NCBI RefSeq assembly: GCF_900119185.1
Contig: NZ_FPJE01000034.1
Coordinates: 1-42,683, forward strand
DNA from: Sinomicrobium oceani
GTDB lineage: Bacteria > Bacteroidota > Bacteroidia > Flavobacteriales > Flavobacteriaceae
Direction: 5' to 3'
Length of the DNA stretch: 42,683 nucleotides
In this document: positions 7,162-32,402 of the stretch, one piece after another
Numbering within the stretch: position 1 is the stretch's first letter
How the letters are laid out: every line of letters starts with the position of its first letter
The notes under the pieces: model-generated
The model's input: only the letters and a program-made list of their open reading frames with translations
Database searches by the model: none
Told to the model about the DNA's origin: nothing
Program-made: the position numbers and the translations under genes

Positions 7162-7614
7162 TTAAACTTTAACCTTATATTCCCCGGGCCTGGATCTCAT
7201 GACCTGCTGAAGACGATTCCAAGAATTGATCTGAGCTATAGCCAATGTGAGCAATGCTATCTCCTGCACATTAAAAAATTGCTTCAACTTTTCAAAAAGA
7301 GTTTCTTCGATATGATGACGAGGCAGGTCGGTAAGAGCTTCAGCCAGCTCCAGCGCCACCTGCTCTTTTTCGGAGTAATACGGACATTCTCTCCAGGCCG
7401 AAACCGAATACAGTCGAAGAGGCTCTTCTCCCATATTTAACGCCTCTTTGTAATGCATATCAAGACAGTATGCACAGTGGTTCAGCTGAGATATCCTATA
7501 CTTCAGCAACTCTACCAGATGGAGGTCTATACCACTTTGATGAAGATAGTTTTCCACCCCGGCCATAACCTCATACATACCTTTGGGAAGGTCCCCGTAA
7601 CGTATTCTTTCCAT
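7162..7614 (-). CDS. Carboxymuconolactone decarboxylase/AhpD-like protein, partner of the ECF41 sigma factor
   Basis: Small all-helical protein of the AhpD/carboxymuconolactone decarboxylase superfamily, 150 residues. The AhpD-type redox motif is complete: Cys47-x-x-Cys50-x-x-x-His54 in NHCAYCLDMHYKEAL, which suggests peroxidase or thiol-redox chemistry. The substrate is unknown. Genes of this superfamily are the classic neighbours and targets of ECF41 sigma factors (the COE group: carboxymuconolactone decarboxylase, oxidoreductase, epimerase), and an ECF41 gene lies 63 bp upstream on the same strand. Its upstream region has an ECF41-like promoter at 7648-7674 that matches one before the sigma gene. 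Cytoplasmic; no signal peptide. Confidence 0.9.
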   Translation of the reverse strand: MERIRYGDLPKGMYEVMAGVENYLHQSGIDLHLVELLKYRISQLNHCAYCLDMHYKEALNMGEEPLRLYSVSAWRECPYYSEKEQVALELAEALTDLPRHHIEETLFEKLKQFFNVQEIALLTLAIAQINSWNRLQQVMRSRPGEYKVKV

Positions 7615-7647
7615 AATAGCTTATCTTTTTAAGTTATATGCATCTAA

Positions 7648-7674
7648 GACAAACCAACTATAAAAAACGTGACA
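7648..7674 (-). promoter_or_regulatory. ECF41-type promoter before the AhpD-like gene
   Basis: On the minus strand the -35 element is TGTCACG (7668-7674) and the -10 element is TGTC (7648-7651), with a 16-base spacer. The known ECF41 consensus is close to TGTCACA with a CGTC-like -10. The site begins just after the sigma gene stop (7678-7680) and 34 bp before the target ATG (7614). The same layout recurs at 8595-8621. The shared pattern is GTCACGTT, 13 bases, TTGTCTT. Confidence 0.75.
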
Positions 7675-7677
7675 CCT

Positions 7678-8532
7678 TTAACGGTTTTTGTGAAGATTTT
7701 TTAGCTTATCTGGGTTACGGACAAAATAAACATTTCTAATCTTTCCCTCCCGAATATCAACAGGCATACAACTGATCAATTCCTCACCGATATAACAAAA
7801 AACGGCAGGATAATGATTCACCCTTTCAATCTCAAAATGCATACCGGGAGTATTCATGTAGAATTTCCTGAAAATTCCCATAAGCAACCGGGATACATCT
7901 GTTTTTCCTTTCACCATATTTACTGCCGCCGAAACCTTCCCACCTCCGTCGGAAGTAGCATGAACATCATCGTGCAAAAGGGATTCCAGGCTACTCATCT
8001 CACCAGCCTTTATGACGTTCAACAGCGTAAAGAGACCTTCCTCATGCCCTCTCCCATCCTTCGAAGGATTCATTTCTCTCCCGAGTCTCCCCTTCCCCCT
8101 ACTGAAGAGCTGCCTGGAATTATCTACCGTTATTTCCAGTGTCTCGGCAATTTCGGAATGTGTATAGTTATACCCCTCCTTAAGGATAAAAACAGCACGT
8201 TCCCTGGGGGTAAGTTTTTCAAGTAATATCATCAGGGCATAAGACAATATCTCGGTCCGTTCCAGAAAAATATCAGCACGATCCGTAGCTATCGGTTCCG
8301 GAAGCCAATGTCCGGGATATTCTTTTCTAAACTTATCCTGCCTTTTCCTTACGTTAATAGCATGGTTAATAACGGAACGTATCAGGTAAGCCTTCACATT
8401 GGCTACTCCGTCAACCGGATGCTCCAACTGCTTCAACCATACATCTTGAACCACATCTCTGGCATCTTCATAAGACCCCAGTATATTGTAGGCATAAGTC
8501 TCTAACAAAGGTCTTAAACTGTCTTTAATCAT
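7678..8532 (-). CDS. ECF41-family RNA polymerase sigma factor with C-terminal SnoaL-like regulatory domain
   Basis: Extracytoplasmic-function sigma factor of 284 residues. Region sigma2 spans about residues 5-70 (NILGSYEDARDVVQDVWLK) and sigma4 about 100-155 (LTPRERAVFILKEGYNYTHSEIAETL). About 120 further residues form the NTF2/SnoaL-like extension that defines ECF41. All three family signatures are present: WLPEP (76-80) in the linker, DGGGK (195-199) and NPDKL (273-277). In this family the extension modulates sigma activity and no classical anti-sigma factor is needed; none is encoded here. The AhpD-like gene follows on the same strand. Matching promoter sites before both genes indicate autoregulation. 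What ligand or stress controls it cannot be read from the sequence. Confidence 0.95.
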   Translation of the reverse strand: MIKDSLRPLLETYAYNILGSYEDARDVVQDVWLKQLEHPVDGVANVKAYLIRSVINHAINVRKRQDKFRKEYPGHWLPEPIATDRADIFLERTEILSYALMILLEKLTPRERAVFILKEGYNYTHSEIAETLEITVDNSRQLFSRGKGRLGREMNPSKDGRGHEEGLFTLLNVIKAGEMSSLESLLHDDVHATSDGGGKVSAAVNMVKGKTDVSRLLMGIFRKFYMNTPGMHFEIERVNHYPAVFCYIGEELISCMPVDIREGKIRNVYFVRNPDKLKNLHKNR

Positions 8533-8594
8533 CTTAATCTAATTTTACGCATATCCGTTACGTTAAAAAAGTCTGCATGGTTTTAATCATACAA

Positions 8595-8621
8595 GACAAT
8601 AATCACATCTCGAACGTGACC
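8595..8621 (-). promoter_or_regulatory. ECF41-type autoregulatory promoter before the sigma gene
   Basis: On the minus strand the -35 element is GGTCACG (8615-8621), followed by a 16-base spacer and TGTC at 8595-8598. It lies 63 bp before the sigma ATG (8532). It shares GTCACGTT, 13 bases, TTGTCTT with the site before the AhpD-like gene, including identical spacing, while the spacer bases differ. Confidence 0.72.
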
Positions 8622-31865: not shown

Positions 31866-32402
31866 TTAAACCGTTTTCGCTGTCAATAATTCCTTTAATT
31901 TTTTCTTTCCCCGGAACAGTAATGTCCTCGAGTTTACTTCGGTTATTCCCATGATCTGCGCAATCTCCTCATGATCATAACCTTCGAGCAAGAACAGCAT
32001 CACAACGTACCTGCAACTGTCCGGAAGCTGCTCCATAGCCCGGATCACCATTTTCGGTCGTACATGGTCGTCTACCATCCAGCCACCCGGATCATCTTCC
32101 ACCGGTTGCGGGTAGATCTCGTCCAGCGACAGCAGTTTTTCCTTTTCCAGCTTTATCTTGTCCAGACAATAGTTGATCACTATCCGTTTCAGCCAGGCTC
32201 CGAAAGCTACTTCTTCCCGGTATTGGTGTAGTTTCCGGAACACTCGTATAAAAGATTCCTGTACGGCATCTTCGGCATCCTCTCTATTAGGCAGATAACG
32301 CTTAGCCACGCAAAACATAGCATCGCAATACTTCCTGTAAAGCACCCATTGTGCCTTACGGTCATTATTTCTGCATTTTTCAATGAGATCTGTCTGAAAC
32401 AT
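31866..32402 (-). CDS. ECF RNA polymerase sigma factor
   Basis: Sigma-70 family ECF factor of 178 residues. Sigma2 is visible as YCDAMFCVAKRYLPNREDAEDAVQESFIRVFRKL, and sigma4 as LPDSCRYVVMLFLLEGYDHEEIAQIMGITEVNSRTLLFRGKKKL. There is no C-terminal extension, in contrast to the ECF41 factor at 7678. It is the first gene of a three-gene unit with the anti-sigma-like and DUF4097 genes. Its signal and target promoters are unknown. Confidence 0.95.
   Translation of the reverse strand: MFQTDLIEKCRNNDRKAQWVLYRKYCDAMFCVAKRYLPNREDAEDAVQESFIRVFRKLHQYREEVAFGAWLKRIVINYCLDKIKLEKEKLLSLDEIYPQPVEDDPGGWMVDDHVRPKMVIRAMEQLPDSCRYVVMLFLLEGYDHEEIAQIMGITEVNSRTLLFRGKKKLKELLTAKTV

Follow-up and report, generated by a model that had tools for sequence, protein, structure and literature searches.

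The question raised by this locus is why an ECF41-type sigma factor gene and the CMD/AhpD-like gene behind it are each preceded by a promoter-like string of the same form, and why both strings carry a T where the published ECF41 -10 element begins with C. The window, that is, the whole 42,683-nucleotide stretch of Sinomicrobium oceani contig NZ_FPJE01000034.1 that was analysed, most probably holds a compact, self-driven ECF41 regulon in which the sigma factor starts transcription from twin promoters, its own and that of the CMD gene, and in which Asn60 of the sigma factor sets T over C at the first -10 base. We also lean, with less assurance, towards a broader reading in which Asp or Asn at residue 60 would be a causal and evolutionarily reused switch for this base, separating the promoters of close paralogues (as in Embleya L214 and L217) and letting a promoter cassette either be kept when its target is swapped or, in one Sinomicrobium, be copied ahead of a new gene pair for an RND efflux pump.

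Membership of the sigma protein in the ECF41 family is supported by its sequence features. The domain order is sigma2, a linker with WLPEP, sigma4 and a SnoaL-like C-terminal extension of about 100 residues that has NPDKL close to its end; WLPEP is the linker hallmark of ECF41 factors in the available part of Wecke et al. (PMC3426412), and Pfam detected no region 3 at E 0.001. A profile built from 27 homologues matched Mycobacterium tuberculosis SigJ (PDB 5xe7) over positions 2-276 of 282 (E 2.3e-55), with the alignment reaching residue 297 of 312 and covering the C-terminal domain. The Pfam SnoaL_2 match of the window protein was weak and under the cut-off (E 0.0097), and eight of the 27 homologues matched this model at E <= 0.01. 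The top-scoring NCBIfam models were SigX4 (239.5 bits, curated cut-off 323.25) and SigJ (226.5 bits, curated cut-off 271); as both cut-offs were missed by the best models, the protein is read as a divergent ECF41 member, and the ECF41 literature consulted (e.g., the available part of PMC3426412) does not give these cut-offs as a defining feature of the family. The closest sigma relatives, with 65 and 71% identity, are encoded on contigs of two other Sinomicrobium genomes (G297 and G298). The CMD gene adjoins the sigma gene as a COE-type partner, on the same strand and 63 bases away, and encodes a CxxC and a His within HCAYCLDMH; no obvious anti-sigma gene was found nearby when the open reading frames of the neighbours were read. 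Other near neighbours resemble what we take to be lgt, yidD and cysS. A second ECF sigma gene lies elsewhere in the window (31875-32300, minus strand, 185-residue frame).

Table 1. Positions of the genes, promoters and codon discussed in the text; entries with a locus prefix belong to other Bacteroidota loci.
Feature	Position	Strand	Basis or remark
ECF41 sigma factor gene, 284 aa	7678..8532	minus	Pfam Sigma70_r2 and Sigma70_r4; SigJ profile match
CMD/AhpD-like gene, 150 aa, predicted target	7162..7614	minus	Pfam CMD, 61.3 bits; ahpD_dom TIGR00778
Codon AAC for Asn60, sigma factor region 2.4	8353..8355	minus	Predicted to set the first -10 base (column 60 separation)
ECF41 gene promoter	8595..8621	minus	-35 GGTCACG 8621-8615, 16-base spacer, -10 TGTC 8598-8595, then TT
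CMD gene promoter	7648..7674	minus	-35 TGTCACG 7674-7668, 16-base spacer, -10 TGTC 7651-7648, then TT
YCII protein behind promoter	L033:1082-1426		Pfam
Flavodoxin-fold reductase behind promoter	L034:2387-2971		Pfam; L032, L037, L039 and L077 look alike
120-residue protein behind promoter	L036:2449-2811		No Pfam match

An earlier sequence-only reading had described a TTGTCTT-type block before both genes, with equal spacing and unlike spacer letters, and both sites were located on the minus strand as described: GTCACGTT-N13-TTGTCTT occurs exactly at 7646-7673 and 8593-8620, with 16 bases between the -35 7-mer and TGTC in each. The coordinates of that reading (7648-7674 and 8595-8621) are off from these by one to two bases because their frame runs from the -35 7-mer to TGTC. 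The sigma-gene site differs from the family -35 by one mismatch (G for T), and only three bases separate the sigma stop codon from the -35 of the CMD promoter. The assignment to ECF41 promoters was borne out: when compared to the consensus TGTCACA-n16-CGTC, derived from 285 sequences (available part of Wecke et al., PMC3426412), the spacing and the GTCAC and GTC cores are as published, while the last -35 base and the first -10 base differ, the latter being T for C. The consensus is not without departures, as the Bacillus licheniformis promoter reads TGTT (same source). From published motif-to-start distances, the predicted minus-strand start sites lie near 8585-8586 and 7638-7639, giving leaders of approximately 53-54 bases for the sigma gene and 24-25 bases for the CMD gene; leaders of 22-23 bases are given for the mapped ECF41 cases (PMC3426412, in part), and the Sinorhizobium meliloti motif lies nine bases ahead of its start site (PMC3616915, in part).

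The same reading had taken the -10 variant to be possibly specific to Bacteroidota, and this part of it fell. Among Bacteroidota loci whose ECF41 factor has Asp in region 2.4, all 12 with an exact spacer-16 site read CGTC, L167 having a TGTC site in addition; all 13 Asn loci from other phyla, one from Azospirillum and 12 from Actinomycetota, read TGTC or GGTC. The variant as a phylum trait was therefore rejected: in the sequences compared, it follows residue 60, not phylum. What is typical of Asn-type Bacteroidota loci is an extension of the -35 element, GTT after TGTCAC, seen in 83-86% of 36 sites. No prior description of the resulting Bacteroidota consensus, TGTCACGTT-n14-TGTCTT, or of a residue-60 rule within ECF41 was met in the openly licensed papers searched.

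The association between residue 60 and the first -10 base was assessed in 108 loci, of which 71 (70 Asp or Asn loci and one Ser locus) show an exact spacer-16 site. The idea arose in the Bacteroidota alignment, where TGTC loci have Asn and CGTC loci Asp; loci from plasmid records and paralogues were then added, the first 16 of which had already been examined when the idea was recorded. Among the 70 Asp/Asn loci, 34 are non-Bacteroidota, and 22 of these (11 Asp, 11 Asn) were fetched after the idea had been noted. The set includes partial profile matches (e.g., L170, L167, L213, L221 and L245) and leaves out matches to sigma2 and sigma4 only (L152-L157), a fragment with a stop (L169), a locus with the same sigma as L210 (L216) and duplicates (L093, L094, L135-L138, L140, L141, L158-L162, L164, L187 and 13 further loci). 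Counted by site, Asp goes with C 37 times and T once, Asn with T 45 times, G nine times and C never, and Ser with C once. Counted by locus, with the majority of sites deciding, C was found in 33 of 33 Asp loci and T or G in 37 of 37 Asn loci; all 70, which together span four phyla, agree with the rule. Of the 284 columns, column 60 alone sorts C from non-C -10 elements with no error, the next best making seven.

The rule has its edges. An exact spacer-16 site is absent from 37 of the 108 loci, including the Asp locus of Cytobacillus (L171), which reads CGTT twice. When spacers of 15-17 bases are pooled, the first base is non-C in 39 of 39 Asn loci and C in 37 of 41 Asp loci. L091 and L144, from a spacer-15 subclade, depart from the rule, as do L218 and L244, with odd and doubtful spacer-15 non-C sites. 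In that Bacteroidota subclade (L091, L142, L143 and L144) the rule fails, GGTC or AGTC being read irrespective of residue 60, with Asp occurring with GGTC at L091 and with AGTC at L144. The Asp locus L167 is mixed, with one TGTC beside two CGTC sites.

The most serious alternative, which we regard as unlikely, is that residue and base are linked by shared ancestry alone, and that another residue, or none, sets the base. Of the 37 Asn loci, 24 are indeed Bacteroidota that group together on the tree, and only five or six changes are independent. On a maximum-likelihood tree inferred with column 60 removed, residue and base each change six times, together; all six independent pairs agree, five of them on well-supported branches, while the sixth agrees as all 70 loci do (sign test p 0.0625 for the five supported pairs, 0.031 for six of six). 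The ordinary Fisher value of 1e-20 ignores relatedness and is unfit for use. Against ancestry alone stands, besides the lack of any other error-free column, the Azospirillum locus L181, where residue and base change together and Asn sits inside an otherwise Asp-type helix (LCLNELKSAR). The same holds for Embleya, in which L214 (Asn, TGTC) is identical in 262 of 307 aligned residues to L215 of another strain (Asp, CGTC), with similar spacers, and in 245 of 307 to its paralogue L217 on the same record (Asp, CGTC); within columns 50-75, N60D is the sole change common to both comparisons.

A structural basis for a role of residue 60 can be proposed, with one point against it. The available part of PMC6411747 reports a bond between N92 of sigma-H and the template C that faces the -10 G, and gives Arg as the sigma-J residue at the N88 position. 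In our SigJ alignment an Arg stands four residues ahead of the Asp equivalent to residue 60; N60 of the window protein should therefore equal sigma-H N92 and would therefore adjoin the variable base pair. The base pair that N92 contacts (same source) is, however, the adjacent G:C pair rather than the variable one, which counts against the residue-60 reading. Asp60 might accept a hydrogen bond from the amino group of C, and Asn60 might donate one to the keto group of T or G; such major-groove contacts would perhaps explain the base pattern. The 2019 sigma-L structure paper of Lin et al. (PMC6372665), in its available part, leaves the preference for a C-G step unexplained and proposes sigma-L residues 78-82 as possible contacts, without demonstration. 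Later papers may already have settled this question.

Regarding the two promoters, a second alternative holds that sigma and CMD genes form a single operon read from the sigma promoter, the second site being a relic without a role. The shared strand and the short distance between the genes are what such an operon would look like, and a single promoter is common among ECF41 loci (Table 4 of PMC3426412, available in part). We nevertheless judge it improbable, since the element precedes both genes at five of five orthologous Sinomicrobium loci (one mismatch allowed); the finding that the second site is the sole one at five Asn-type Bacteroidota loci carries only mild weight, the upstream site being the sole one at four. 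Across 48 Bacteroidota ECF41 loci, again with one mismatch allowed, 18 have twin sites, five a downstream site only, five an upstream site only and nine none; at the remaining 11 the sole match is exact and lies 250-900 bases ahead of the sigma gene. The next frame behind this site, read at seven of the 11 (L082-L086, L089 and L092), matches CMD in five (L083-L086 and L092). The sigma promoter of Sinomicrobium G297 reads TGTCCGG, without TT after TGTC.

The family itself is patchy in its distribution, occurring in five of six genomes of the genus (the window genome counted), in 10 of 296 genomes of the order sample (E <= 1e-50) and in 18 of 392 of the phylum sample (1e-30); a scan of viral contigs found no relatives. 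In 15 genomes, the 29-base form occurs 32 times with at most one mismatch, 25 times at ECF41 loci and seven times elsewhere, six of the latter inside frames of the mechanical ORF list and one as an intergenic copy. G299, the genus member without an ECF41 match, has one such site, inside an ORF. The gene behind the second promoter is CMD in Sinomicrobium and at L078, and varies at other loci (Table 1), with an epimerase at L080, which has a downstream promoter only; as far as these sequences go, the promoter cassette is steadier than its target gene.

In genome G296 (L076 and L133), a second ECF41 paralogue has its own CMD gene, and the promoter was found before the CMD gene only. In the Sinomicrobium genome G300, an 85-base copy of the CMD promoter, including the first CMD codons and 88% identical, lies at L125:1070-1154 (C12 near 843384). 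A TetR gene flanks it on one side and, on the other, genes encoding an HlyD-type adaptor and an AcrB-type pump; the ECF41 locus is about 33 kb away. The copy may represent a recruited third regulon member. On a Streptomyces NBC_00841 plasmid (L201), five exact TGTCACA-n16-[T/G]GTC sites lie within 4.4 kb around the ECF41 gene, a cluster hinting at a larger local regulon.

In the window genome (5.02 Mb), the search proposed with the sequence-only reading returned two exact matches to GTCACGTT-N13-TTGTCTT, one ahead of the ECF41 gene and one ahead of the CMD/AhpD-like gene, none with one mismatch and 13 with two. That the twin strings are chance matches or sites of another regulator is hardly credible, with approximately 0.01 exact sites expected by chance (15 fixed bases, 2 x 5.02 Mb) against two seen, both where predicted. 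Exact spacer-16 sites outside the sigma gene number 93 in the 108 ECF41 loci (856,478 bases), while 27 control ECF loci, scanned on both strands (184,470 bases), have none. With up to three mismatches, 79+90 sites were found, compared to 106+88 for a reversed-pattern control, so the weaker matches do not rise above noise. On this ground, and for want of one-mismatch sites, the idea of a wider regulon in this genome was rejected. A plus-strand string with three mismatches (8557-8584) was likewise rejected as a third promoter, as 10 of 100 shuffles equalled the match count.

The proposal that the sigma factor drives its own two-gene regulon is well supported by ECF41 membership, agreement with the published motif and spacing, conservation in relatives and genome uniqueness. 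In the self-driven regulon that we favour, the SnoaL-like extension would hold the sigma factor in check, by analogy with the ECF41 proteins whose C-terminal control is described in the available parts of PMC3426412 and PMC8999054. On activation by a signal, the factor would bind RNA polymerase and drive its own promoter, a positive feedback, together with that of the neighbouring CMD/AhpD-like redox enzyme. Asn60 in region 2.4 would favour T over C at the first -10 base, with Asp reading C and Asn reading T or G.

ECF41, its promoter and twin promoters are already known. Todor et al. (2020) reportedly derived a general ECF specificity code, with amino acid-base pairs, from ECF sigma factors taken together with the promoters associated with them, and the pairing of Asp/Asn with C/T may already be known through that code. 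How the C-G step is read becomes testable by a single swap in near-twin ECF41 factors whose difference at one contact residue is matched by a difference at one promoter base, and a residue-60 switch, if true, would be a convenient means of obtaining insulated sigma-promoter pairs. For Bacteroidota, which contributed two of the 373 proteins in the 2012 ECF41 survey (PMC3426412, in part), a promoter consensus and a predicted regulon are supplied.

When compared to known systems, the locus resembles Ecf41Bli-ydfG of B. licheniformis and Ecf41Rsp-RSP_0606 of Rhodobacter sphaeroides in its large C-terminal extension, WLPEP linker and CMD partner, as well as in a promoter of the form TGTCACA-n16-xGTx and in the partner being the sole target detected (PMC3426412, in part). 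The promoters of these two species, determined by 5' RACE, both have TGTCACA, with TGTT in B. licheniformis and CGTC in R. sphaeroides (same source). In contrast to these systems, both genes in the window carry a promoter, the order is sigma-CMD, the -35 element continues as CACGTT, and T stands first in the -10 element, alongside Asn60. Twin promoters are nevertheless not new in kind, as the same survey found the motif before both genes in 20% of the loci where the ECF gene precedes the COE gene. S. meliloti RpoE9, also an ECF41 factor, shares the CMD target and a mapped promoter of the same form (available parts of PMC6180224 and PMC3616915), which our promoter scan returned letter for letter; it differs in gene order, with CMD upstream of the sigma gene, in its single promoter, in reading CGTC and in the Asp found at the residue-60 position. 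Finally, M. tuberculosis SigJ is alike over nearly its full length, including the C-terminal domain, and differs from the window protein at the residue-60 position, where the alignment shows Asp.
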